Assembly: GCA_002403895.1 (NCBI GenBank)
Contig: DHIQ01000071.1
Span: 330-17,220 of the forward strand
DNA length: 16,891 nucleotides
Direction of reading: 5' to 3'
Source of the DNA: Candidatus Neomicrothrix sp. UBA4742
GTDB lineage: Bacteria > Actinomycetota > Acidimicrobiia > Acidimicrobiales > Acidimicrobilacustridaceae
Made by a program: the position numbers and the translations under genes. The number at the start of each line of letters is the position of its first letter. Position 1 is the stretch's first letter. The notes below the pieces were generated by a model. That model saw nothing but the letters and a program-made list of their open reading frames with translations. It was not told the origin of the DNA and did not search any database. This document shows positions 1 to 14,913 of the stretch, in pieces.

Positions 1-158
1 GGCAACGGGGAGGCGATCGCGACCAGGCCGGGGGCTCCGAGCAGCGCCAGCACCGGCGTCGCCACCGACGATCCGCCGACGCCGAACACGCCCATCAAGA
101 CGCCGACGACGATTCCGGCGAGGACGAAGAACGGCCAAGGCGCCACCGAAAGGATCAT
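1..158 (-). CDS. TauE/SafE (TSUP) family permease, N-terminal part
   Basis: The minus strand from ATG at 158 encodes 52 residues and runs off the left edge of the window. The peptide begins MILSVAPWPFF and forms a hydrophobic first helix, followed by GVFGVGGSSVATP, a glycine-rich signature typical of the first repeat of sulfite-exporter-type (TSUP, TauE/SafE) permeases. These are inner-membrane proteins that move small sulfur-containing or organic anions; the substrate cannot be told here. A short GGTGGG lies directly before the start and is too close to be a good ribosome site, so a start further upstream is possible. Only the N-terminus is visible, so the family call rests on one motif and hydrophobicity. 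Confidence 0.65.
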   Translation of the reverse strand, partial: MILSVAPWPFFVLAGIVVGVLMGVFGVGGSSVATPVLALLGAPGLVAIASPL

Positions 159-273: not shown

Positions 274-732
274 TCAGTGCAGTTGGGCGATGAGTTCAAT
301 CTCGACCGCAATCCCGAACGGCAGCTCGGCCAACCCGACCGCTGAGCGGGTGTGGCGTCCGGCATCGCCGAACACTTCCACTAACAGGTCTGAACAGCCG
401 TCGATGACGGCCGGGGTCCGGTTGAACCCGGGTGCGACATTCACCATTCCGAACAGCTTTACGATCCTGCCGATCCGATCGAGATCACCAAGCTCCTGTT
501 CAAGCGTCGCCAAGATCGACAGCCCGGTGAGCCGCGCGGCGCGATAGCCCTCTTCGAGGGAGAGATCGCCACCAACCTTGCCGACGACTATCTCGTCGCC
601 GTTGGCGGGGCCGTGGCCACCTACATACAGCGTCGATCCCAGTTGGGAGCAGCCCAGGTAGTTGCCCGCCGGCGGGAAGACAGTGGGTAGGACGATGCCG
701 AGTTCGTCGAGGCGTGCCCCTGTTCTTGACAT
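274..732 (-). CDS. RidA (YjgF/YER057c/UK114) family protein
   Basis: The 152-aa product has the single-domain RidA fold signature. The C-terminal block RSAVGLAELPFGIAVEIE (from R129) contains the conserved arginine that in RidA enzymes binds the carboxylate of 2-aminoacrylate-type imines, and GFNRTPAVIDGCSDLLVEVFG matches the preceding helix and strand. RidA proteins deaminate reactive enamine/imine intermediates released by PLP enzymes, and act as trimers in the cytoplasm. The length (about 150 rather than 130 aa) and the motif resemble the longer YjgF-like subgroup, whose substrates are poorly known. No Shine-Dalgarno precedes the ATG; a TAGTAT box 6 nt upstream suggests leaderless transcription. 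It is divergent from the YkvA-like gene and flanked on both sides by the hairpin repeat. Confidence 0.88.
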   Translation of the reverse strand: MSRTGARLDELGIVLPTVFPPAGNYLGCSQLGSTLYVGGHGPANGDEIVVGKVGGDLSLEEGYRAARLTGLSILATLEQELGDLDRIGRIVKLFGMVNVAPGFNRTPAVIDGCSDLLVEVFGDAGRHTRSAVGLAELPFGIAVEIELIAQLH

Positions 733-897: not shown

Positions 898-1302
898 ATG
901 ATCTTGGCTCTGGTCGTCTCGCTCGGCGTCGCCGTCGCCGTCATCTGGCTCGCCCTGCTCCTGACGCTCATGGGGACCAAACCCGAGATCGGCACCGTGC
1001 GCGAAGCGGCCCGGATCATGCCCGACTCGGCGAGACTGATCCATCGACTCGCCACCGACAACGACCTCCAGCGCGGGATCCGCCTTCGGCTCTGGCTCCT
1101 GTTGGGCTACCTCGCGCTGCCCCTCGACCTCGTGCCCGACTTCATCCCTGTCATCGGCTACGCCGACGATGTCCTCATCACCAGCCTTGTGCTGCGCAGC
1201 GTGATCAAGCGGGCCGGAACGGACAAAGTCCAATCACAATGGCCCGGCACACCCGAGGGACTCAACGCACTCGCTCGACTCTGCCGATTGCCAATTGCAT
1301 GA
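898..1302 (+). CDS. YkvA family (DUF1232) membrane protein
   Basis: The 134-aa protein opens with a long hydrophobic helix (residues 1-26) and carries the DUF1232/YkvA core at about 66-105, with YLALPLDLVPDFIPVIG followed by YADD. This block, two short hydrophobic helices around a conserved P-x-D-x-x-P-D-F-x-P, defines the family. The molecular role of YkvA proteins is not established; they are small membrane-associated proteins found across bacteria. Family members are often about 100-140 aa, so this one looks complete. The start is set by ATG 898, with a -10-like TAGAGT 8 nt upstream. The neighbours (RidA and an unknown protein) give no functional clue. It is transcribed divergently from the RidA gene. 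Confidence 0.85.
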   Translation: MILALVVSLGVAVAVIWLALLLTLMGTKPEIGTVREAARIMPDSARLIHRLATDNDLQRGIRLRLWLLLGYLALPLDLVPDFIPVIGYADDVLITSLVLRSVIKRAGTDKVQSQWPGTPEGLNALARLCRLPIA

Positions 1303-1577: not shown

Positions 1578-1871
1578 CTAGGGGCCGGCGTCTCGCTTTG
1601 GGGTGCGGGCACGTTCGAGCGCCCGGTCGTGGAGGTCATCGACGGTGATCGAGCCCTGGCTAAGCAGCGGCAGGAGTTCGATGGCCATCTCGACGAACCG
1701 GTCCCAGGATCGGACGGGTTCGAACTCTCCGGCCTGGATCGCGTCGATCGCCATCATGACGAGCCTTTGCTCGTCGGGCCCCAACTCACGCCACCGTTTG
1801 GCAATATCCCCTCCAGGCGCCGGTTCGCGCCTCGGTTCCGGGGCCTGCTCGGGTGTTGGGTCATCGGTCAT
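1578..1871 (-). CDS. Hypothetical protein, 97 aa, acidic with proline-rich N-terminus
   Basis: I do not recognise a family. The start at ATG 1871 is chosen over a start further upstream (1919) because GGAGGAGA sits at ideal distance before it. The product begins MTDDPTPEQAPEPRREP, a proline- and charge-rich tail likely to be disordered. A compact, probably helical region of about 60 residues follows (KRWRELGPDEQRLVMMAI, then ELLPLLSQGSITVDDLHDRAL). There is no signal peptide or membrane segment. It is convergent with the YkvA-like gene and divergent from the HTH gene at 2013. The strong ribosome site and the coding-like composition support a real gene; the function is unknown. Confidence 0.6.
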   Translation of the reverse strand: MTDDPTPEQAPEPRREPAPGGDIAKRWRELGPDEQRLVMMAIDAIQAGEFEPVRSWDRFVEMAIELLPLLSQGSITVDDLHDRALERARTPKRDAGP

Positions 1872-2012: not shown

Positions 2013-2213
2013 GTGGGAGCCGCCTACGAGCTTGATGACCTTGTCGGCGCCGCGGAGATCGCCGACCGACTCGGGCTGTCGAGCACGAGCGTGATCCACG
2101 ACTGGCGCCGCCGCCACCCGGAGTTTCCCGCGCCGGTGAAGGTGCTGCGTATGGGGTTGCTCTGGTCGTGGCCATCCATTGAGGCATGGGCCACCGCCAC
2201 TGGGCGGCTTTAG
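2013..2213 (+). CDS. AlpA/excisionase-like helix-turn-helix protein
   Basis: The 66-aa protein is almost entirely one MerR/AlpA-type winged helix. VGAAEIADRLGLSSTSVIHDW forms the helix-turn-helix, and the wing carries FPAPVKVLRMGLLWSW, followed by SIEAWATATGRL. Such single-domain proteins bind DNA and serve as excisionases or small regulators in actinobacterial mobile elements and regulons. The start is uncertain: GTG 2013 is preferred because of the -10-like box just upstream; TTG 1992 would add seven residues. The gene is convergent with the relaxase gene, with only 9 bp between their ends, so transcripts could interfere. It may belong to the element or mark its interior; its target is unknown. 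Confidence 0.72.
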   Translation: MGAAYELDDLVGAAEIADRLGLSSTSVIHDWRRRHPEFPAPVKVLRMGLLWSWPSIEAWATATGRL

Positions 2214-2222
2214 GCCCCACGG

Positions 2223-5200
2223 TCAGTCGAACAAGTCGAGGCCGAGGTCCTGGTCAACGCCGGTCCGTCGAAGCTGGGGCTGTCGCGGCACCCGCATGAC
2301 TTCGAGCTGAGCGCGTGTCTCGGCTGTCTCTCGTAGGCCGCCGAGCGGTGTCGACCGCGCCGGGAGGGCGGGGCCGGTGTCCAGGCCGAGGTGGTGGGTT
2401 TCGAGGATGGTGGCGCCGCGTCTCCAGGCCGTCTGGGCAGAGCGGTCGGCAGGTACCGGCCCGAGGATGCGGAGGTGGTAGGCGGGTGGGTCGGCCATGC
2501 GTCGGGCGACCCGGTAGCTGACTTGGCGGTCGAGCTCGCGGTTGACCGCGTCGAGGAGGCCCTCGTCTGCGGCGTGGTCGACCTGGAATCGGTCCCGAGC
2601 GGCGGTCGTCGCCTGGGCGTCATGAAGTTCGGTGGCGATCCGATCGACCGCACTCGATAGCCCCCCGATCCGTTCTCGGAGGTCGCGCAGCTCGCCGCGG
2701 GTTCCGGGTCCGCGCAGGCGGCGGTCGGCGAGTTCGTTGTACCGAGCGACAAGCGGCTCGATCGGTTCAGCGAGTCGTTCATGTCGGGCTACAAGGGCGG
2801 CGATGTCGTGGGTGCGGTCGGGCGGGCAGGCGGCGAGGATGCTGGTGAGCCGGTGCCTCTCGGCGACGAGGTCTTCGATGTCCCAGAAGGCGAGGGGTTC
2901 GCCGGTGTCGATGGCGAGTCGCTGGTCAGTGCGGTGGTGGAGGGCAAGTTGGACCGCCTCCAGGGGATCACCGGGTAGCGGTGGTGGGCCGTGGCCAGTG
3001 GAGTCGTCGACCTCGGCGGCACCGACCAGGTAGAGGTGGTTCGACGCCCGGCCGCGGCTCATGGCGACATAGCCGCGTTCGCGGAACAGTTCGTCGGTGC
3101 CGAGCAGGAGCCCACGGTCGACGGTCGCTCCTTGGGTCTTGTGGATGGTGGTGGCGTAGCCGTGGGCGAGGTGGCCGGCGTCGACGTAGGTGGCCGGCAG
3201 CACGATCCGCCGGTCGTTGGTCTGAATGGTGACGGTTCTCTTGTCGGGGTCGACGGCTTCGAGCGTGGCGCGGGTGCCGTTGCAGACCCCGAGGCGCCGG
3301 TTGTTCTTCAGGCAGATGATCTGGTCTCCAGCCTGGTAGGGACGCTCGTCCACTACCAGCTCGGGGCCGGCCACCTCCCCGGCGCGTGTGAGGTAGGCGC
3401 GGGCCCGGCCGTTGAGGTCATCGACGTCGGACCGGCGGAACGCGACCATGGCGACGCTGTCGCCGGCCAGCCGGTAGGACCACCAGTCGGCCACCATCAT
3501 CTGGCGGACCTCGATCGCCGTGGTGGCAGTGACGACCCGACCCTTGTCGGCATACGCGGCGAATGCGGCGTCGACATCGCCGGCTCTTAGCTCGGCGAGC
3601 GCTTCACGTTCCCATTGGGCGTGCTGGCGGCGGTTCTCGGTCAGTTCGATCGGATCGAGTCGCTTGGCGAGACCGACGAGCACGCCTCCGGCGTCGATCT
3701 CGGGCAGCTGATGAGGATCACCCACGAGCACGACTTTGGCGCCGGCCTGATCCGCGGCATCGAGGATCGGGGCGAGGCTGCGGGTGCCGGCCATCCCCGC
3801 TTCGTCGATCACGACGACGGTACGGTCATCGAGGCGGACCCGGCCGGCGTCGAGGTCGATCTGCAGCATTGCCAGCGTCGACGACGGAATGGCGGCGGTG
3901 GATTGAAGCTCTTGGGCGGCGATACCGGCCAACGCGGCGCCGATCACCTGGTGGCCGGTCGTTTGCCAGGCCTCGCGGGCGGCGTCGAGGGTGTAGGTCT
4001 TGCCCGTCCCCGCCGCCGCGCACACGACGTCGATGCCGTTCCCGCTGCGGGTGAGCTGGGCGACCAGGTCGGCCTGCTCGGCGGTCAACGTCGGCCGGCG
4101 GGCCATCACGCCGGCCAGAGTCGCCCCGTCGACCACGCAGATCCCTTGATCGGCACGGGCGACGGAGCGACCCACGACGTGGCGTTCGATGCTGATGAGC
4201 TCGGCGGTCGACCAGCGGGGCTCTTTGATACCCGCCGCGACGATCGTGCCGTCCGTCCGGCGGATCACGTTCGATGACAACAGGCCGGGCCCGGCAGTGT
4301 CGACCAAGCGGACGACCTGGCGACGGTCGACCAAGGCGTCGGCCATGTCCTCGACGTCGGCCACGGTCGCCCCCGCGGGGAGCCGCTCGACGATGGCCCG
4401 AAGTAGGTCACGGCGGTCGAATGACGACGCCCGCCTCGTCAAGCCTTCCTCGCCCAACAGATCCCGATGGAGCTGGTCACGGTCCACCTCCGGGGCGGAG
4501 CGGGGCACGCGGTCCAACACTTCGCTGAGCGAGGCTGGATCGAAGCCGATGGCGGCAGCCTTCGCTCGCCACACCTCGAGCATTGACCGGTCGTCCAGCG
4601 ACATGTCTTTGGCTTGGCGGGTCGCGAGGGTGGCGAGTTGCGCGGCGCGGGCCGAACGGAAGCCGACCTCGTCGAGGTGCTCCTGGATCTCCTTGCGACG
4701 ATCGGAGAAATGATCACGGACCGCTTGGTCGATCCCGACGATGTCAGCGATCCCGTTGTTCACCGGGCCCCATTCGACGCCGAGGCGGCAGGTCAGCTCA
4801 TGACGCAGGTGCGCCTCATACAGGCACCCGGCCGTCTTCGAGTGCAGAAGCAGCAAACGGCCGTCAAGGGTGCGCCACTTGCCATCGGTGCACTCGGCCA
4901 TGTTGGCCACCAACATGTGGGTGTGGAGGTGCGGATCACCGGCCCGACTCGTGCGATGCCGGAACCCGGCCGCAACAAGCCCGTTCACTTCGATCTGGTT
5001 CACGCCATTCTTCCCGGTGCGCGACCTCGCCGCCACATGCTCGACATACGCGAACGCGGCGTCGACCGACGCATCATGCGCCTCCTTCATGACCCTTGCC
5101 GTGTCGGGATCACCGAGACCGGCGAGCAGCGACACGGACTTCGGGGCCCGAAACGTGAGGTCCCACCCGGCGATCTCCCGACCGGCGAACCGACTCAACT

Positions 5201-5414
5201 TCTCGCCGGTTGCCGGGTCGAGGCCAGCCCACACGGCGTGGAGGTCATCCGCAGCGACCTCACCGCCGAGCACGAGGCCGAGCGGCTCCGCCGCGGTGCC
5301 GGCCCATCGGCCGGGGGCTTCGCCGACACCGCGGTAGTACTCATCGATCCCGTCGGCGACCGCATTGAGGTAGTAGCTCTCACCGCTGAGCCTGACCTTG
5401 CCGAGACTGAGCAC
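2223..5414 (-). CDS. MobF-family conjugative relaxase with TraI/RecD-like helicase
   Basis: The 1063-aa protein nicks oriT, stays covalently bound to the DNA end, and unwinds the strand for transfer. The N-terminal TrwC-type relaxase has paired tyrosines early (about residues 14-15 and 26-27), the motif WDLTFRAPKSVSLL, and the metal-binding triad HLHTH at about 162-166. The SF1 helicase follows, with Walker A AAAGTGKT (466-473), Walker B VVVIDEAGMA (533-542), GDPHQLPE (565-572), HGYATTIHKTQGAT (751-764) and YVAMSRGR (782-789). About 230 charged residues complete the protein, which ends in GLDLFD, similar to beta-clamp-binding peptides. GTG 5414 is chosen because AGGAAAGG lies 8 nt upstream and the product then begins VLSLGKV, as relatives do; an ATG at 5498 would add 28 unlikely residues. 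No frameshift was seen. Confidence 0.93.
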   Translation of the reverse strand: MLSLGKVRLSGESYYLNAVADGIDEYYRGVGEAPGRWAGTAAEPLGLVLGGEVAADDLHAVWAGLDPATGEKLSRFAGREIAGWDLTFRAPKSVSLLAGLGDPDTARVMKEAHDASVDAAFAYVEHVAARSRTGKNGVNQIEVNGLVAAGFRHRTSRAGDPHLHTHMLVANMAECTDGKWRTLDGRLLLLHSKTAGCLYEAHLRHELTCRLGVEWGPVNNGIADIVGIDQAVRDHFSDRRKEIQEHLDEVGFRSARAAQLATLATRQAKDMSLDDRSMLEVWRAKAAAIGFDPASLSEVLDRVPRSAPEVDRDQLHRDLLGEEGLTRRASSFDRRDLLRAIVERLPAGATVADVEDMADALVDRRQVVRLVDTAGPGLLSSNVIRRTDGTIVAAGIKEPRWSTAELISIERHVVGRSVARADQGICVVDGATLAGVMARRPTLTAEQADLVAQLTRSGNGIDVVCAAAGTGKTYTLDAAREAWQTTGHQVIGAALAGIAAQELQSTAAIPSSTLAMLQIDLDAGRVRLDDRTVVVIDEAGMAGTRSLAPILDAADQAGAKVVLVGDPHQLPEIDAGGVLVGLAKRLDPIELTENRRQHAQWEREALAELRAGDVDAAFAAYADKGRVVTATTAIEVRQMMVADWWSYRLAGDSVAMVAFRRSDVDDLNGRARAYLTRAGEVAGPELVVDERPYQAGDQIICLKNNRRLGVCNGTRATLEAVDPDKRTVTIQTNDRRIVLPATYVDAGHLAHGYATTIHKTQGATVDRGLLLGTDELFRERGYVAMSRGRASNHLYLVGAAEVDDSTGHGPPPLPGDPLEAVQLALHHRTDQRLAIDTGEPLAFWDIEDLVAERHRLTSILAACPPDRTHDIAALVARHERLAEPIEPLVARYNELADRRLRGPGTRGELRDLRERIGGLSSAVDRIATELHDAQATTAARDRFQVDHAADEGLLDAVNRELDRQVSYRVARRMADPPAYHLRILGPVPADRSAQTAWRRGATILETHHLGLDTGPALPARSTPLGGLRETAETRAQLEVMRVPRQPQLRRTGVDQDLGLDLFD

Positions 5415-5674
5415 GAGGTGCGCCTTTCCTACGACCCGACCGTGGCGCTTAGCGCCGTGTCCGGTAGGTCCGACTTGGAGACGGCCGGTCCCTCGCATCG
5501 GGATGCAAGTTCGTGGCGCGACTTTTGGATGGGAAGAAGGTGGAGGTCGAGACGGGGAAGGGAGTGGGGGGAGGCGCTAGTGGATAGCGGGCCGGTTCAG
5601 GAGTGGCGAAGGCGGGCTTGTGCGAGTCGGTGGAAAGCGCGCGCCCGGTGAGGACAGGAACGCCCCCGAACGCG
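5415..5674. other. 260-bp gap upstream of the relaxase gene, candidate oriT/operator region
   Basis: No gene is supported here. The gap holds three short perfect inverted repeats: GGCGC-TTA-GCGCC (5444-5456), GCATC-GG-GATGC (5495-5506) and CGCTA-GTGGA-TAGCG (5575-5589). Between the last two lies an almost pure purine stretch on the plus strand (about 5527-5574). Relaxase origins of transfer often lie next to the relaxase gene and carry inverted repeats near the nick, so this is the best local oriT candidate. The nick site cannot be named from sequence alone. The first repeat could instead be an operator, since it lies 30 bp upstream of the relaxase start. Confidence 0.35.
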
Positions 5675-6130
5675 TCAGGCGAGCAAGCTGAGCTGCGTCA
5701 TCGAGGATTCGGAGCTCCGAGCCGCTGGAGACGACACAGCCGTGTCGCTGGTGGCCATGTCCCGATCGATGCGACGCGGACCCGGTCGATGCTCCTCATG
5801 GCGTCCGGGTTCGATCGTCAGCCCGGCCGCGGCGATGTCGAGGACGTACATCGACGGCGTGAACTGGCCGGTCCGACCGCAGCGACCATCCGACCGGGTG
5901 ACAACTCCAGCACCGATGAGCGCTCGGAGCGAGCGAGCCACGGTGTCCTTCGACAGCCCGAGCGAGGCGCCGAGCTCGCGGGTGCCGGCCTCGATTTCGA
6001 CGACCGGACCCGACAACGACGAGCGACCGGCGAGCACCTCCAGCACGACCCACGCCGCCGGCCCGACCTCAGCCCGAACCGAGGACGCGACATCCAGATC
6101 AACAATGAGGCGCCGGCCCTCAGGCGACAT
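5675..6130 (-). CDS. Winged-helix DNA-binding protein of the mobile element
   Basis: The 151-aa protein has a winged helix at about residues 20-85. ELGASLGLSKDTVARSLRALIGAGVVTR is clearly a helix-turn-helix plus wing, of the kind found in MarR/GntR/replication-initiator-like regulators. The C-terminal half is polar, probably disordered, and ends in QLSLLA, which resembles the QL[SD]LF beta-sliding-clamp-binding peptide. ATG 6130 overlaps the stop of the excisionase-like gene by 11 bp, so the two are translationally coupled; a longer reading from 6229 would add arginine-rich shadow sequence. The gene is followed by the 260-bp gap and the relaxase gene on the same strand. It may regulate transfer or bind near oriT; no specific family is recognised. 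Confidence 0.75.
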   Translation of the reverse strand: MSPEGRRLIVDLDVASSVRAEVGPAAWVVLEVLAGRSSLSGPVVEIEAGTRELGASLGLSKDTVARSLRALIGAGVVTRSDGRCGRTGQFTPSMYVLDIAAAGLTIEPGRHEEHRPGPRRIDRDMATSDTAVSSPAARSSESSMTQLSLLA

Positions 6131-6344
6131 TCGCGCCGCCGAGCTGCGCGTCGATCCACGCGAGCAGCGCACGCTTCGGCACCCGCAGACAACGCCCGAT
6201 CCGAATCGACGGAAGCCCCGCCGCGCCACCGGTCCGCCGGAAGATCGCTACCTCGTCGTAGGCGCGGCTGCGGCTGATCCGCAGCACCGCAGCCGCCTCG
6301 TCGACCCGCAACATGTCCGGCAAGGTGTCGATGTTCACGTCCAT
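6120..6344 (-). CDS. Excisionase-family (HTH_17/MerR-like) DNA-binding protein
   Basis: The 74-aa protein is a single excisionase-type winged helix. MLRVDEAAAVLRISRSRAYD is the helix-turn-helix, and the wing runs through LPSIRIGRCLRVPKRALLAWI. Such proteins act as recombination directionality factors that bend DNA at att sites, or as small repressors. ATG 6344 is fixed by a strong GGAGGT 7 nt upstream; starts further up (to 6467) would add unsupported sequence. It is the first gene of the minus-strand cluster (this gene, then winged helix, then relaxase). It lies 365 bp from the tRNA half-gene, with a perfect 11-bp tandem repeat in between that could be its binding site. No integrase gene is next to it, which is unusual for Xis. 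Confidence 0.82.
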   Translation of the reverse strand: MDVNIDTLPDMLRVDEAAAVLRISRSRAYDEVAIFRRTGGAAGLPSIRIGRCLRVPKRALLAWIDAQLGGANVA

Positions 6345-6708
6345 GAGAGATACCTCCGCTCGTCGACCCCGCCGCCCGGATCGGACGGCATGGGATGAAT
6401 GCCTTCCCTTTACACACCCACCCCAAAGCCAGTACCCGTCGCCACATCTCTCTGAAGAATCGGTCACACGAGCACCCGGCGGACGCGAAGGATCACGCCC
6501 TCTCCCCCCGCTGCCGAGGTCCGAACCGGCGTCAGAAACGACCGGGCAAGAGGCGCCGCGCTGCTAACGGATTGCTAACGGATTGCCCTGGACGGGGGAT
6601 CACGAGGCCGAACCCCACGGATGGCCGATTCGCAAAAGCAGCTGGTCAGCCCCACTATTGGGCACTGGAGCACACGAGTCGCTACTGGCCGAACACGTCC
6701 GGATGCGA
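6345..6708. other. Gene-free element end between the excisionase-like gene and the tRNA half
   Basis: No coding region is supported on either strand. The stretch holds the promoter region and Shine-Dalgarno of the excisionase-like gene and the 11-bp tandem repeat at 6563-6584. It is the natural place for integrase arm-type and excisionase sites. I see no clear sigma-type promoter. Confidence 0.5.
6563..6584 (+). repeat. Perfect tandem direct repeat of 11 bp near attR
   Basis: GCTAACGGATT occurs twice head to tail (6563-6573 and 6574-6584) and is followed by GC, as if a third unit began. It is 125 bp inside the tRNA half-gene. Direct repeats of about one helical turn are typical of excisionase or integrase arm sites; that role is inferred. 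Confidence 0.6.
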
Positions 6709-6764
6709 CTTAAACCCCCCGGCCGCTCCGGCGGCGTGCGGGTTCGATCCCCGCCCCGGGCACC
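6709..6764 (+). other. 3' half of tRNA-Leu(UAA): probable attR attachment site
   Basis: Reading in tRNA order: anticodon loop CTTAAAC (6709-6715, anticodon TAA), 3' anticodon stem CCCCC (6716-6720), a long variable arm with GCCG-CTC-CGGC, T-stem GCGGG (6738-6742), T-loop TTCGATC, T-stem CCCGC (6750-6754), acceptor strand CCCGGGC (6755-6761), and discriminator A followed by CC. The bases before the loop cannot form the 5' anticodon stem, and no D-arm or GCCCGGG acceptor strand lies upstream. So this is a half gene, as left at the far end of an element inserted at the anticodon loop. The minus-strand DJ-1-like gene ends immediately after it. Confidence 0.75.
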
Positions 6765-7502
6765 TCAGAGGAGGGCGGCGAAGCGCTTGGCAAAGAGGTA
6801 GGCATCGCCCGGCCAGCGGGCCGAGACGTAGCGACCGTCCTCGACGACGAATGCGGGACCGTCATCGATGGCCGTACCCCGGCGGCTGAGCTCGCGAGGA
6901 CCCCGCTCGAACTGCGATGCCGTGCGCAACGCGCTCTTGACCTCGTCCTCCACATAGGCCGGGTAGGTCCGGTAGTAGCGACCCAATCGCCAGGCGGTCA
7001 GGTAGTACGCGCTGCGTTCCATGTACTTGGGCAGGCAGGTGGTGCGCCGGTCCGCGATCACGCTGCACCCGGTGGCCGGGTCGATGGTGCGAGCCAGCAC
7101 GATCACCCCGTGACAGATGGCCCCCACCGGCCGGTCCAGGGCCCAGAACTCGGTCACCCGGTCACGCAGCTCGGCCCCGTCCAGGTACTGGCGCATCCCG
7201 GGCGCATGACCCCCGGCCAGGATGAGTCCTCCGAACTCGCTGGCCACCACGTCACGCCAGCCGAGAGGCGCCCGGTAGGCCGGGTCCTCGGTGAGCTGAC
7301 GGTAGAAGGCGATCGGTTCGGGCTCGGCCCCGAGCTGGCCGAAGAGGACACCGCTCAGCAATCGAGGATCGGCCTCAGGGGCAGTACCGCCGTGCTCGGT
7401 GGCGAACACGACCTCATGACCGGCGTCGGTCAGCAGCCGCCACGGCACGGCCACCTCGGTGACATCGAAGTCACGATCGGGCAGCGGCATCAGGACCTTC
7501 AC
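6765..7502 (-). CDS. DJ-1/PfpI family protein
   Basis: The 245-aa protein has the DJ-1/PfpI class I glutamine-amidotransferase-like fold. Glu16 near the N-terminus (DVTEVAVPW) is placed like the acidic partner residue, FGGLILAGGHAPGMRQYL is the strand-loop before the nucleophile, and the nucleophile elbow is AICHGV with Cys130-His131. Relatives include Hsp31/YajL-type chaperone-deglycases, PfpI and isonitrile hydratases; the exact reaction cannot be told. It is longer than minimal PfpI (about 170 aa), with a C-terminal extension (about 145-245) containing paired tyrosines and a final aromatic-rich segment. The start is GTG 7502, because the family N-terminus MKVLMPLPDRDFDVTE is then complete. 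There is no Shine-Dalgarno, but a TACGCT box lies 7 nt upstream. It lies directly beyond the element boundary. Confidence 0.85.
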   Translation of the reverse strand: MKVLMPLPDRDFDVTEVAVPWRLLTDAGHEVVFATEHGGTAPEADPRLLSGVLFGQLGAEPEPIAFYRQLTEDPAYRAPLGWRDVVASEFGGLILAGGHAPGMRQYLDGAELRDRVTEFWALDRPVGAICHGVIVLARTIDPATGCSVIADRRTTCLPKYMERSAYYLTAWRLGRYYRTYPAYVEDEVKSALRTASQFERGPRELSRRGTAIDDGPAFVVEDGRYVSARWPGDAYLFAKRFAALL

Positions 7503-10535: not shown

Positions 10536-10844
10536 CTAGGCGGCCCGGAGCTCCTCGGATTCGATCTGGGCCCACAGTGCGGTGCGACAGCGAGTGGCTG
10601 CCGCACCGGTGAGATCGTTGACCACCACCACCCCTTCGATCATGTCGGCCAATACGGCCACCCAGGGGCGCCCCCGCAAGCGGACTGACACCGTGGCCGC
10701 CCCGTCGGCCCGGCGCCGCACCGACCGCTCGACCCCGTCGAGGCGGGGTGGACTGCGGAACCCGGGCACGACCAGGCCTCGCCGGTGGGCGACCTGACCG
10801 AGTGCCCGGGCAGCGGCGGCGAACTGGAGTGAAGTGGCTTCCAT
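10536..10844 (-). CDS. Hypothetical protein, 102 aa
   Basis: I do not recognise this family. The first half is helical and basic (ARALGQVAHRRGLVVPGFRSPPR, then ERSVRRRADGAATVSVRLRGRPW). The second half is more hydrophobic, with VAVLADMIEGVVVVNDLTG and ending in WAQIESEELRAA. The pattern suggests a small alpha/beta protein without signal peptide or membrane helix. GGAGAG lies just before the ATG, and a TATAAG box about 30 bp upstream on the minus strand could be the promoter. It is divergent from the nuclease gene across only 65 bp, so the two may share control. Codon-position GC bias supports a real gene. Confidence 0.65.
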   Translation of the reverse strand: MEATSLQFAAAARALGQVAHRRGLVVPGFRSPPRLDGVERSVRRRADGAATVSVRLRGRPWVAVLADMIEGVVVVNDLTGAAATRCRTALWAQIESEELRAA

Positions 10845-10897
10845 CGCTCTCCATCATGCCCAGGGGGTGTGACACTTATAGGAAGATCAGGGGGTCG

Positions 10898-10903
10898 TAG
10901 GGT
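10898..10903 (+). promoter_or_regulatory. -10 box of a leaderless promoter for the nuclease-led operon
   Basis: TAGGGT fits TANNNT and ends 6 nt before ATG 10910. No Shine-Dalgarno is present at usual distance. This would drive the long plus-strand operon. A GTGT-G-ACAC inverted repeat at 10867-10875 lies just upstream and could be a regulator site. Confidence 0.4.
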
Positions 10904-10909
10904 GACGAG

Positions 10910-11875
10910 ATGATCGGCGAGCCGGAGATGAACCCGGCCCAGCGCGAAGTGGTGGAGCTCCTCGGCGCGCCGGAGTCGGAACGGCCCCGTTTCGATGCCG
11001 GGTTGCGCCACGAACTGCGAGCCGAGCTGGAACACGAGCTGGCCCCCCTGGTTGACCAACTCGACCAGGACGACCAGCTGTTCGTGTCCAAACACAAGCT
11101 GTCGCAGGTGCACGGCTGCGAGGCCCGCTACCTGGCCGAGGAGACGGAGCCGTTCGCGTGGTCGGTCCCCATCGCCCGGGGCACGGTGGCCCACAAGGCC
11201 ATCGAACTCGGCATCTCGTGGCGAGGCGATCCCGTCCCCACCGAGCTGGTGGATGAGAGCCTGGCCCGGCTCAGCCAAGGCAGCGACAGCATGGGTGAGT
11301 TCTTACGCACCTGCGGTGAGGCCGATCGCGCCGAGCTGCGGGGCCAGGCCACCGATCGGGTGACGACGTTCTTCGACTGCTTTCCCCCGCTCAAGCCGGT
11401 GTGGCGCCCAGTCCCGGAGAGCAAGGTCCGGGTCGAACTGCTGGATGCCCGGATCGTGCTGTCGGGCAAGATCGACCTGTCCATCGGCAAGGCCAACGGG
11501 ACCACAGCGGGCAAGGTCCTCATCGACCTCAAGACCGGTGGGTTCGCCCCCGCCCACCTCGACGACCTCCGCTTCTACGCCCTGCTCGAGTCGATCAAGA
11601 TCGGCACCCCGCCCCGCCTGCTGGCCAGCTACTACCTGGAGGAGGGCCGAGCCCACGCTGAGGCGGTCAGTGAGGGCCTGTTGCACGCCGCGCTGGCCCG
11701 CACCGTCGACGGAGTGGCCCGCATGATCGAACTGCGCGCGGGCTCGCGAGCACCGACCAAGCGAACCGGTCCGCCGTGTCGCTGGTGCCCCATCCTCGAC
11801 GCCTGCTCCGAGGGCACCGCGTGGTGCTCGGGCGATGACCCCGAACGCTTCGAGTCCGATACGACTGACCCATGA
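10910..11875 (+). CDS. PD-(D/E)XK nuclease of the RecB/Cas4/AddB type with a likely Fe-S cluster
   Basis: The 321-aa protein carries the RecB-type nuclease core: GTVAHKAIE (His95), LSGKIDL (Asp189), VLIDLKTGG (Asp206, Lys208) and the following helix with RFYALL (Tyr223). One cysteine near the front (HGCEARY, Cys70) and three at the back (CRWCPILDAC; Cys290, Cys293, Cys299) match the split four-cysteine pattern that holds a 4Fe-4S cluster in Cas4 and AddB. It probably degrades or trims DNA ends. The first 55 residues are acidic and helical. It stands alone: no helicase, cas1/cas2 or CRISPR array is near. Its stop overlaps the next start by 4 bp (ATGA), so it is co-translated with the membrane protein genes downstream. 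Confidence 0.85.
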   Translation: MIGEPEMNPAQREVVELLGAPESERPRFDAGLRHELRAELEHELAPLVDQLDQDDQLFVSKHKLSQVHGCEARYLAEETEPFAWSVPIARGTVAHKAIELGISWRGDPVPTELVDESLARLSQGSDSMGEFLRTCGEADRAELRGQATDRVTTFFDCFPPLKPVWRPVPESKVRVELLDARIVLSGKIDLSIGKANGTTAGKVLIDLKTGGFAPAHLDDLRFYALLESIKIGTPPRLLASYYLEEGRAHAEAVSEGLLHAALARTVDGVARMIELRAGSRAPTKRTGPPCRWCPILDACSEGTAWCSGDDPERFESDTTDP

Positions 11876-12951
11876 CCGAACAAGCCAATTGGAAAGCCGA
11901 GCTGGCGGTGTTCGTGCTGAGCATGGTCATCGTGGTGTTGCCCACCATCCAGCTCCTGGCCCGCAACGACGGCAACGTGAGCGCCCTGTTGAACATCGGC
12001 GACCAGGCCGCCTCGCGACCGTTCGTGGAAGAGACCATCCCCAACCCGGTCCTGGTCAAGGGCTACGGCCACGACGGCCAACAGTTCTACGTGGTGGCCC
12101 GATCGATCACCCAGCCCGCCGGCCTCCAGACCCTCGACGGCAACGTCGATCGCCCCCGCTACCGCGCCCGACGCATCCTCTTCCCCCTGCTGGCGGCGCC
12201 GTTCCCCCAGGGCGCACCGACGGTGTGGGCCATGCTCGGCATCAGCCTGGTGTCGGTCGGCGCCGCCGCGGTGGCCGCCGGTCGCCTCGCCCGCCGATTG
12301 GGGGGCCCGGTGTGGCTCGGCCTCGCCGTGGCCCTCAGCCCGGCCCTACTCATCAGCGTGCGAGCCAGCCTCGGTGACGCCCTCGCCTTCTCGCTGGCGC
12401 TGTGGGGCGTGGTGTTGTGGCGCAAGCGCCTGGGGTGGGCCGTGATCTTGTTCACCCTGGCCGCCCTCACCCGCGAGACCACCCTGGTGGTACCCGCTGC
12501 CTGTCTGCTGGTTGGCACCAAGCGCCAACGCTTGGTGTTGCTCGTCCCCTTCGCCGTCTACGCCGCCTGGGACCTCACCGTCAACGGGCTGGTGCAGCCG
12601 CAGCTGAGTCAGGAATCGACGAGTCCGGTGGCCGACGCCCTCCGCCAGTTCGCGCTCCCGTTCCAGTCGTGGCGAGATCTCGGACTCGGCAGCCGCACCG
12701 TCCTGCTCGCCCTCCTGCTCACGGTGGCCAGCCTGGTATCGGCCTGGATCCTGCGCCACCGCCTGCCGGAGGTGGCTCTGTGGCTGGTGGCCGACGTGAT
12801 CCTGGTCGTCATCGCCGGCACCGGAGTGGCCGAGGACCTGCTCAACTACGCCCGCCTGGCCCCGCTGGCCGGCGTGGGCATCGCGCTCGCCGCCTGGTTG
12901 GCTCACCAAGACTCACGCGGCCCGAAGAAGGCCCCGGCCCATGCGACGTGA
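11872..12951 (+). CDS. Multi-pass membrane protein, GT-C glycosyltransferase-like, paralog A
   Basis: The 359-aa protein has an N-terminal membrane helix (about 11-31), an extracytoplasmic stretch with the motif YGHDGQQFY (65-73) and then about seven further hydrophobic segments. Conserved blocks are RASLGDALAFSLALWGVVLWR and LTRETTLVV (about 199-207). The DGQ-x-FY motif in the first loop is shared by uncharacterised multi-pass proteins annotated as involved in cell-surface glycopolymer formation, and the topology resembles GT-C glycosyltransferases; the substrate is unknown. The ATG overlaps the nuclease stop codon, and the 3' end overlaps the next gene by 11 bp. It is clearly a paralog of the following gene, including near-identical DNA around the DGQQFY motif. 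Confidence 0.75.
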   Translation: MTEQANWKAELAVFVLSMVIVVLPTIQLLARNDGNVSALLNIGDQAASRPFVEETIPNPVLVKGYGHDGQQFYVVARSITQPAGLQTLDGNVDRPRYRARRILFPLLAAPFPQGAPTVWAMLGISLVSVGAAAVAAGRLARRLGGPVWLGLAVALSPALLISVRASLGDALAFSLALWGVVLWRKRLGWAVILFTLAALTRETTLVVPAACLLVGTKRQRLVLLVPFAVYAAWDLTVNGLVQPQLSQESTSPVADALRQFALPFQSWRDLGLGSRTVLLALLLTVASLVSAWILRHRLPEVALWLVADVILVVIAGTGVAEDLLNYARLAPLAGVGIALAAWLAHQDSRGPKKAPAHAT

Positions 12952-14011
12952 GCTCCTGGTGGGGCTGGCGGCGATGGTTCTCGCCGCGGCCATCGTGGTG
13001 CCGCAGGTGATCCGAGACGGCGGCAACGTGTCGACCTACCTGCGGGTCGGCACCTACTCGGCGTCGCGTCCCTACATCGAGCGCTCGTTGCCCAACCCGG
13101 TACTGACCGGCGACTACGGCCATGACGGCCAACAGTTCTACGTGATCGCCAGCACGTTCCCCCACCCGCACGACGCCATCGGCTACGTCGACCAGATCCG
13201 CTATCGCTTCCGTCGGGTGCTGTTCCCCGCGCTGGTCTCGGCCGCCCCCGATGGTGCCCCCCTGGTGTGGACGATGTTCGCCGTCAACCTGCTCGCCATC
13301 GGGGCTGCCGCCATGGCCCTGGCCCGGCTCGCCTCGCGCTTGGGAGGCACCACATGGCTGGGGATCGTGGCCGGTATCTCGCCCGCCCTGCTCGAGAGCC
13401 TGCAGGGCAGCCTGGGCGACGCCCTCGCCTTCGCCCTGGCGCTGTGGGCGGTGGTGCTGTGGCGGCGTCACCTGGGCGGGGCCGTCGTGTTGTTGACCCT
13501 GGCCGCGCTGACTCGTGAGACGACCCTGGTGGTGGCGGCCGCCTGCTTCGTGGCGGGCGATCGCCGTCAGCGCCTCTGGCTCCTGGTGCCTCCGGCAGTG
13601 TTCGTCGTCTGGGTCGGCATCGTGTCGTGGTGGCTGCCCCAGAGCGACGGTCACGGCGGGGGGAACATCCTGCGCGACACGGCCGGCGAGCTCACCGTGC
13701 CGTTCCGGGCGTGGATCCATCTGGGCCTCGACTCCCAATCCGTGGTGTTGGGCCTGGGGCTGCTGGTCGCCTCCCTGGCGGCGGCGTGGACCCTGCGCCG
13801 ACGGTTGCCCGAGGTGGCGGTGTGGGTCCTGTTGGATGCGCTCATCTTGGTGATGTCCGACGAGGGCGTGGCCGAACGACCCCTGAACCTGGCCCGGGTG
13901 GCAGCCATGGCCGTCCCGGCCATTGCGTTGGCCGTGGCCGCGGTGCGCCATCCTGACGGGCCGGCCAGCTCGCCGGAGAGCCGGCTCGACCACCTGACTA
14001 CCATGGGGTGA
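12941..14011 (+). CDS. Multi-pass membrane protein, GT-C glycosyltransferase-like, paralog B
   Basis: The 356-aa protein is the tandem duplicate of the preceding one, with the same order of features. It has an N-terminal membrane helix (about 5-23), YGHDGQQFY (59-67), the block GSLGDALAFALALWAVVLWR and LTRETTLVV, then hydrophobic segments to the end. The N-terminal cytoplasmic tail is shorter than in paralog A. A conserved acid-Gly-Gln in the first loop would fit an active site facing outward, as in lipid-phosphate-sugar-dependent GT-C enzymes; this is inference. ATG 12941 lies inside the end of paralog A, and its stop TGA shares one base with the ATG of the acyltransferase gene. The two paralogs may form a heteromeric pair or act on related acceptors. 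Confidence 0.75.
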   Translation: MRRELLVGLAAMVLAAAIVVPQVIRDGGNVSTYLRVGTYSASRPYIERSLPNPVLTGDYGHDGQQFYVIASTFPHPHDAIGYVDQIRYRFRRVLFPALVSAAPDGAPLVWTMFAVNLLAIGAAAMALARLASRLGGTTWLGIVAGISPALLESLQGSLGDALAFALALWAVVLWRRHLGGAVVLLTLAALTRETTLVVAAACFVAGDRRQRLWLLVPPAVFVVWVGIVSWWLPQSDGHGGGNILRDTAGELTVPFRAWIHLGLDSQSVVLGLGLLVASLAAAWTLRRRLPEVAVWVLLDALILVMSDEGVAERPLNLARVAAMAVPAIALAVAAVRHPDGPASSPESRLDHLTTMG

Positions 14012-14913
14012 TGGCCAGCCGACCCACCACGGATTCCGGCGCGACCCGGCCGCACCAGGAAGCGACGCCCGACAACGTCTCCCTGCTGCCGGTCCGGAGA
14101 GAGCCGGCTCGCGAGCTGGACGACCCCCGCATGAGTGACGTCGACGAGTGGGGCCGCTCCGAAAGCCTGCGGTCGCTGGCCCGCGCCGCCTACGCCCCCA
14201 TCTACGACAAATGGTTCCGAGTCGAGTGGGAAGGCCTGGACAAGATCCCCGCCGAGGGTGGTGCACTCCTGGTGGCCAACCACGCGGCGGCCATCCCCAG
14301 CGACGCGCCGGTGATCATGCACGGGGTCGAGACCGAGCTGGGCCGCCCCTGTTACGGGCTGGCCGACCACCTCTTCAAGAGCATGCCGGTGGTGGGCACC
14401 TACTGGGCCCGACTCGGCGGCGTGGTGGCTCACCCCGACAACGCCCACCGCCTGTTGCGCGAGCAGCACCAGCTGGTGCTGGTGTTCCCCGAGGGCAGCA
14501 AGGGCCCGGGCAAGCACGTGTCGGAGCGCTACAAGCTGCGCCGTTTCGGGCGCGGGGGCTTCGTCGAGATCGCCATGCGGGCCGGGGTGCCGATCGTGCC
14601 CATAGCGGTGATGGGCGCCGAGGAGTCGATGCCCATCCTGTGGAAGTCGGCCACGGTGGCCAAGGCTCTCAACGTGCCCTACTTCCCGGTGACGGCCAAC
14701 CAGGTGCTCTTCGGCCCGGCGCTGGGCACCATCGCCTACTTCCCCGCCAAGTTCAAGCTGCGGGTCCTCGACCCGATCCATTTCGACGTACCGCCGGACC
14801 GGGAGCGGTACTCCAAGAGCCGGATCATGGACGAGTCCGAGCACATCCGTGACCTCATCCAGGACGAGCTCCACGACATGCTCCGCACCCGCCGCTCGAT
14901 CTGGTTCGGCTGA
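14011..14913 (+). CDS. PlsC-like lysophospholipid/glycerolipid acyltransferase
   Basis: The 300-aa protein contains an LPLAT domain from about residue 70. Motif I is NHAAAIPSD (His91, Asp98), with six rather than four residues between His and Asp, as in the actinobacterial and MGAT-like subgroup with NHSG-x-LPxD. Motif III is FPEGSKG (159-165), and a hydrophobic VPIVPIAVMGAEES follows. It would transfer an acyl group from acyl-CoA or acyl-ACP to a lipid hydroxyl at the inner membrane. The first 45 residues are polar and probably disordered. The start is ATG 14011, overlapping the previous stop; GTG 14008 is possible. With the following SDR gene it resembles the mycobacterial Rv0502/Rv0501 pair, which is recalled from the literature, not aligned here. 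Confidence 0.85.
   Translation: MASRPTTDSGATRPHQEATPDNVSLLPVRREPARELDDPRMSDVDEWGRSESLRSLARAAYAPIYDKWFRVEWEGLDKIPAEGGALLVANHAAAIPSDAPVIMHGVETELGRPCYGLADHLFKSMPVVGTYWARLGGVVAHPDNAHRLLREQHQLVLVFPEGSKGPGKHVSERYKLRRFGRGGFVEIAMRAGVPIVPIAVMGAEESMPILWKSATVAKALNVPYFPVTANQVLFGPALGTIAYFPAKFKLRVLDPIHFDVPPDRERYSKSRIMDESEHIRDLIQDELHDMLRTRRSIWFG

Follow-up and report, generated by a model that had tools for sequence, protein, structure and literature searches.

A displaced 3' half of tRNA-Leu(UAA) marks the probable end of a tRNA-targeted integrative element in Candidatus Neomicrothrix

Insertion by a tyrosine integrase into the anticodon loop of a tRNA gene, with displacement of the 3' half of that gene, is a standard mechanism of integration. 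In the Islander collection, 3' fragments accompany 3760 islands, and for 2083 the site is centred on the anticodon (PMC4383910). IMEs that have a single tyrosine recombinase mostly integrate at specific sites, which include tRNA genes (PMC5704250), and MobF relaxases are described as well represented in Actinobacteria (PMC3218068). The host group considered here is little studied: in full-text literature the combination of Acidimicrobiia, integrative, relaxase and integrase led, among the texts returned, only to a review on plastic waste and resistance genes.

We analyzed a stretch of 16,891 nucleotides from Candidatus Neomicrothrix sp. UBA4742 (“the window”; GCA_002403895.1, positions 330 to 17,220 of contig DHIQ01000071.1, our C85). 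The contig has 37,793 bases with a run of Ns at 200-329, in an assembly of 3.55 Mb, 285 contigs and 79% completeness. Positions 6709-6764 are the 3' half of a tRNA-Leu(UAA). We consider it likely that this half lies displaced at the excisionase-side end of an integrative element, and the gene content suggests that the window probably holds one end of a tRNA-targeted, mobilizable element (Table 1). In this uncultured actinobacterial lineage the half would thus fix one end of a mobile element, and could serve as a sequence tag for locating the other.

Table 1. Features of the window, with positions counted from its first base
Feature	Position	Strand	Evidence
RidA-like protein, possible cargo	274..732	-	PF14588
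DUF1232 (YkvA) protein, possible cargo	898..1302	+	PF06803
97-aa protein, possible cargo	1578..1871	-	no match in Pfam, PHROGs, NCBIfam
Small excisionase/AlpA-like HTH ORF	2013..2213	+	weak PHROGs matches to DNA-binding and excisionase families; no NCBIfam match
MobF/TrwC relaxase with helicase domain	2223..5498	-	PF08751 (E 6.1e-83), PF13604
Winged-helix-like regulator, second gene of the module	5675..6229	-	weak HTH matches, below cut-offs
Excisionase-like HTH_17 protein, Xis candidate; longest ORF starts at 6467	6120..6344	-	PF12728 (E 2e-8)
11-bp tandem direct repeat TGCTAACGGAT x2	6562..6583	+	between excisionase-like gene and tRNA half
GCTGGTCAGCC, candidate integrase arm-type site	6641..6651	+	motif similarity, chosen post hoc
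tRNA-Leu(UAA) 3' half, displaced attachment-site fragment (attR)	6709..6764	+	sequence reading, homology, ARAGORN-typed relatives
Anticodon loop CTTAAAC, probable crossover segment and true element end	6709..6715	+	homology limit, relatives' repeats; crossover predicted
DJ-1/PfpI-like gene, chromosomal side	6765..7502	-	PF17124/PF01965; stop codon directly adjoins tRNA end
Conserved neighbour of tRNA-Leu(UAA) in relatives	10536..10844	-	22/22 relatives with both

The tRNA half and the limit of homology

Read from its letters, the 56-base half comprises the anticodon loop (anticodon UAA) followed by CCCCC, a long variable arm, GGCCGCTCCGGCGGCGT, with a four-pair GCCG/CGGC stem, a T-arm of five perfect pairs (GCGGG-TTCGATC-CCCGC), the acceptor strand CCCGGGC, an A at 6762 and CC at 6763-6764. 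BLAST with positions 6640-6770 matched 129 of 198 class-level genomes at E<=0.1, own genome counted; the best match outside the own genome was in G002 (91%, 55 nt, E 2.2e-15), followed by G083 (88%, 58 nt, E 2.2e-14) and G187 (87%, 55 nt, E 5.9e-13). ARAGORN was run on 33 loci, 29 of which (L046-L074) came from other genomes through this search, and these 29 gave 26 intact tRNA-Leu(taa) genes, two tRNA-Leu(caa) and one locus without a call (L072). An earlier note, made from the letters alone, had named the segment as half of a tRNA-Leu(UAA), and the intact genes of relatives, matching up to 91% over 55 bases, confirm it. Compared by eye with L046, the stem of the variable arm shows changes that are paired, as expected for a part that recently belonged to a working tRNA. 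TTA codons are rare here, with two in the 15 window genes counted, one in the RidA gene and one in a RecB-like gene.

No complete tRNA could be assembled at this locus: ARAGORN made no call across the whole window, and the single Rfam match in the window at E<=1 lies outside 6709-6764. Left of the loop the window reads ATGCGA where G002 has GGGGGG, pairing with CCCCCC; the matching 5' half is indeed missing, as the note had stated. Its further claim, that homology stops where the anticodon stem should pair, was borne out as well: in one comparison at E<=1e-5, homology starts at 6709, the first loop base, in 16 of the 16 order-level genomes listed; for 11 class-level genomes the start is 6705 or 6707. 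Two order-level matches extend slightly to the left, in G035 from 6705 (77%) and in G031 from 6700 (78%), by a few loosely matching bases.

The crossover should therefore fall within the anticodon loop, at about 6709-6715, and on the standard model 6716-6764 would be the host's own displaced tRNA end. Positions 6709-6764 form a tRNA fragment running from the probable crossover point to the 3' end, the form by which such islands are recognized. The note had put the exact end of the element at 6764; the half does hold as an element end, given its Xis-like and MobF neighbours and the architecture seen in relatives, and the end itself would belong in the loop, since that is where the crossover should lie.

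A relaxase module beside the half and its counterparts in relatives

Leftward from the half follow an excisionase-like HTH gene, an HTH regulator, a MobF relaxase, an AlpA-like ORF, a 97-aa orphan, YkvA and RidA. The Xis candidate scores under the TIGR01764 cut-off and is 43-89% identical to its counterparts in five relatives, and matches to the regulator adjoin the relaxase in several relatives. The relaxase reaches 250.1 bits against a cut-off of 100 for NF041492 (MobF), which places it in a known Mob family, as is asked of an IME. That this module stands beside the half, and that homology ends at the first loop base, together argue for an integrated element.

At E<=1e-100 the relaxase was found in 52 of 397 order-level genomes, own counted. 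We examined 37 longer stretches: 34 hold a relaxase place, two are continuations of other pieces and one is an empty-site locus. A search of contigs with an alignment of five relaxases added 13 loci, of which at least four probably duplicate contigs already among the other loci, with Acidimicrobiia assemblies among the relatives; a single-relaxase query returned no relative. A search with the relaxase among plasmids gave at least 5000 records, all below 60% identity among the matches listed, and was not used. In all, 51 loci including the own contig were scanned for tRNAs, integrases and tRNA fragments, and 20 tRNAs adjoining an integrase were picked by hand, 19 of them distinct because L164 and L203 are one contig.

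Relatives of the same order carry Xis-HTH-relaxase modules beside an integrase and a tRNA gene; an integrase accompanies the module in many relatives, though not in every one. In three of the 19 tRNA and integrase loci, the 3' part of the tRNA recurs as an exact repeat of 40-44 bp, so that it stands at both ends: L117 (tRNA-Arg(cct), 40 bp at the other element end), L119 (tRNA-Pro(ggg), 44 bp; no regulator match there) and L128 (tRNA-Glu(ctc), 44 bp, two bases of which lie past the tRNA). These repeats begin in the anticodon loop, at tRNA position 32-33, and the elements, with both ends visible, span about 10-11 kb. Since the three loci hold a related module between the tRNA with its integrase and the repeat, they support the reading of the window as an integrated element. 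The far-end half was not found in the 16 others, which weakens that reading; many of these contigs are short, yet L114 and L122 have room for it.

Eight distinct halves were found in the 51 loci, in L116 (Met), L117 (Arg), L118 (Ala), L119 (Pro), L128 (Glu), L201 (Ala), L202 (Glu) and the window (Leu); those in L161 and L163 repeat L116 and L118, and fragments cut by contig ends in L204 and L209 were left out. All eight have their first base at tRNA position 29-33, which is 2 to 6 bases ahead of the anticodon, and this again favours integration. It is extremely improbable that the 5' half was instead lost by an unrelated deletion, leaving a pseudogene with mobile genes nearby by chance: no second copy of the half was seen in the own genome, as that account would have it, but the break coincides with the loop base at which such elements enter other tRNAs, and the excisionase-like gene is only about 365 bp away. 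By eye, L124 (3380-16567) has two consecutive Xis-relaxase modules and, near 3380, a 3' half resembling that of tRNA-Gly(gcc), a probable tandem array.

The orientation needed in the window is present in three relatives whose relaxases are 67-72% identical to its own (L112, L114 and L160), and this too argues for the integrated element: Xis and relaxase run toward a convergent integrase, which reads out of the tRNA. If the window follows this arrangement, its tRNA-Leu(UAA) and integrase lie on the left, separated from the relaxase by at least 2.5 kb of other genes. As part of the reading that we consider likely, a tyrosine integrase would have recombined the attP of the element with the anticodon loop of the host tRNA-Leu(UAA); the element would have brought its own copy of the tRNA 3' half, and the intact tRNA-Leu(UAA), followed by the integrase gene, would lie at the far left, off the contig. 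Between the ends would stand the excisionase-like gene, the regulator and the MobF relaxase for mobilization, and probably also the accessory genes for the 97-aa protein, YkvA and RidA.

How far the element extends depends on these last genes. The gap between relaxase and integrase is about 3.5 kb in L112, and within about 0.02 and 0.4 kb in L114 and L160. The note had suggested that RidA and YkvA may be part of the element; because of the gap in L112 they are plausible cargo and the suggestion fits the layout of that relative, although no boundary was found. We had also considered rarity as proof of cargo. The 97-aa protein is found, at E<=1e-5, in the own genome alone among 397 order-level genomes (nine protein-database rows, own included). 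The YkvA gene occurs in 25 of the 397, own counted, and the 16 other family genomes of that sample gave no match to it; the RidA-like gene occurs in six of 37 family genomes, own counted. The argument was dropped because the DJ-1 gene on the chromosomal side is equally rare (at E<=1e-20, the own genome alone among 37 family genomes). A RidA gene on contig C197 was likewise dropped as a second copy of the element: its DNA is 77% identical over 111 bases, the match lies where a contig ends, and the genes beyond are others.

Alternatively, the integrase and left attachment site may have been deleted, leaving a remnant of about 2.0-6.7 kb, with RidA, YkvA and all beyond belonging to the chromosome. 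The AlpA-like ORF occupies the position held by the integrase in L114 and L160, no integrase lies within 2.5 kb here, and L113, whose relaxase (72%) is among the two closest, has an Xis-HTH-relaxase module without an integrase match or tRNA in 20 kb, so that a module without its integrase does occur; the likely reading is weakened to that extent, and also by a stop codon in the relaxase frame of L112, from which it appears that some such elements are decaying. Against a remnant stand the gap in L112 and the 10-11 kb of the two-ended elements, by which 7.1 kb without an integrase is not unusual, as well as the open reading frames and intact tRNA stems, which speak against old decay. We therefore regard a remnant as unlikely, if a serious candidate. 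In L113, where the module lies at 10769-14783, a glutamine-synthetase-like ORF follows the relaxase by eye.

The far end and the chromosomal side

The note had extended the element leftward to an intact tRNA-Leu(UAA). The excisionase-like and MobF genes beside the half agree with this; the intact tRNA and the integrase were not found. No integrase was found on C85, and nine integrase matches lie on other contigs of the genome; an intact tRNA-Leu(UAA) was seen neither in the 7.1 kb of contig left of the half nor elsewhere in the incomplete assembly. BLAST of 6640-6770 in the own genome returned only itself at E<=0.001, so that the second copy of the 3' sequence which the note had expected upstream was not recovered from this 79% complete assembly. 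These three absences weaken the integrated-element reading. A 5'-half pattern gave no match in the own genome, a weak test, as three mismatches catch only eight of 26 relatives' genes.

The tRNA family model marks 36 places in the genome. Among the 35 examined none of those typed by ARAGORN is UAA, and the remaining place (C185:5759-5831) has 73 bases, short for a tRNA-Leu; a weak match at C40:30596-30680 runs into Ns and receives no ARAGORN call. The loci scanned yielded 27 typed anticodons; since the assembly lacks many other tRNAs too, the absence of tRNA-Leu(UAA) is uninformative. Two contigs were considered and set aside as the missing end: C277, which by eye starts in the 3' end of another tRNA followed by a split integrase and has no tie to the window, and C204, which ends in an integrase C-terminus and has no link to it. 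The first 2535 bases of C277 (L106), with that tRNA 3' end, an integrase split between two frames and a remnant resembling a relaxase, are a decaying element in their own right.

On the other side of the half, relatives were expected from the note to have the tRNA abutting the DJ-1-like gene. This was not the case: the 36 other family genomes gave no DJ-1 match at E<=1e-20, and the tRNA instead abuts a gene of the 10536-10844 type, in an orientation opposite to that of the half. In the 22 relatives with both features, out of 32 loci compared, tRNA-Leu(UAA) always lies downstream of this gene on the same strand, at a distance of up to 650 bp in 19 and of 2-6 kb in three; in the other ten the gene was not seen. 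Among these ten, L149 also has no tRNA call, and L067 covers a shorter stretch of the same genome as L145. L073, outside the 32, agrees with the order. In the window the gene and the half lie on opposite strands 3.8 kb apart, separated by glyoxalase-like, Ku, LigD-polymerase and DJ-1 genes. The half is thus inverted relative to its conserved neighbour and an additional rearrangement is required, which weakens the integrated-element reading. In the simplest account, the DJ-1-LigD-Ku-glyoxalase block would have been inverted together with the whole tRNA as a separate event, before or after the element entered. An integrase-mediated inversion that split the tRNA beside 10536-10844 was rejected, as by eye no tRNA 5' half is seen there; for the same reason inversion of the whole tRNA fits better.

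The inverted gene order could also point to an assembly or scaffolding chimera placing an element end beside DJ-1, in keeping with the 285 contigs, the 79% completeness and the N gap at contig positions 200-329. The break, however, coincides with a biological crossover point. Moreover, the 97-aa protein and DJ-1 flank the half on opposite sides, element and chromosome, and in the protein database their clusters, formed at 90% identity, list the same length, 107,984 bases, for the longest contig; the shared figure suggests that one longer assembly contig carries both sides of the half, which also favours the integrated-element reading. We judge a chimeric junction to be very unlikely.

A candidate arm motif and comparison with known systems

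A motif of about GCAGGTCAGAG (at least 9 of 11 bases) lies 7-11 bp past the intact tRNA, into the element, in 13 of the 19 distinct loci, and in two of 59 control tRNA flanks; these statistics are post hoc, the motif having been seen in the same flanks that were later scored and the 20 tRNAs hand-picked. It follows different tRNA genes in L112, L114, L117, L119, L122, L160, L162, L211, L217 and others. One of the two matching controls is a tRNA-Pro on contig C201 of the own genome, itself followed by an integrase. This locus (L109, 3813-3930), with tRNA-Pro(tgg), a similar motif and an integrase, is probably another element of the kind. On the side of the half, the motif profile is high in L117, L119 and L128 (9-12 of 1000 random pieces score as well), borderline in L201, L202 and the window (29-59 of 1000), and no better than chance in L116 and L118. 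For GCTGGTCAGCC in the window, 29 of 1000 random 110-bp pieces of its own locus score as high. The GCAGGTCAGAG-like motif is a candidate arm-type site of the integrase, and the TGCTAACGGAT repeat may be a binding site of excisionase or integrase.

The tRNA genes used across the scanned loci include Leu, Glu, Gly, Arg, Pro, Ala, Met, Val and others. It is conceivable, and we put it forward tentatively, that the loci form one lineage of small MobF-relaxase elements which enter many tRNA genes with a single arm-type motif of about GCAGGTCAGAG. If so, the choice of core site would change freely while arm recognition stays fixed, and a motif shared beside many tRNA genes would offer a handle on how integrases switch target tRNAs.

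Among described systems, the window resembles Islander class A in its displaced tRNA 3' fragment, which starts in the anticodon loop and forms one element end; it differs in that a single end is visible, with the integrase and regenerated tRNA not on the contig (PMC4383910). AICEs of the pSAM2 type and MobF T4SS ICEs share the tRNA site, and MobF (TrwC) marks actinobacterial T4SS ICEs in the survey of PMC3218068; as far as the scanned ORFs of the visible part show, the window differs from these in having no mating apparatus, FtsK/TraB-like transfer gene, Rep, T4CP or VirB4, and the left part of the element would lie off the contig. With IMEs (PMC5704250) the window has in common a relaxase, an excisionase-like gene and a tRNA site, the last used by many IMEs with a tyrosine integrase; that the visible ORFs scanned include no conjugation machinery would fit an IME. 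It differs from them in that no integrase is seen in its element and mobilization is predicted.
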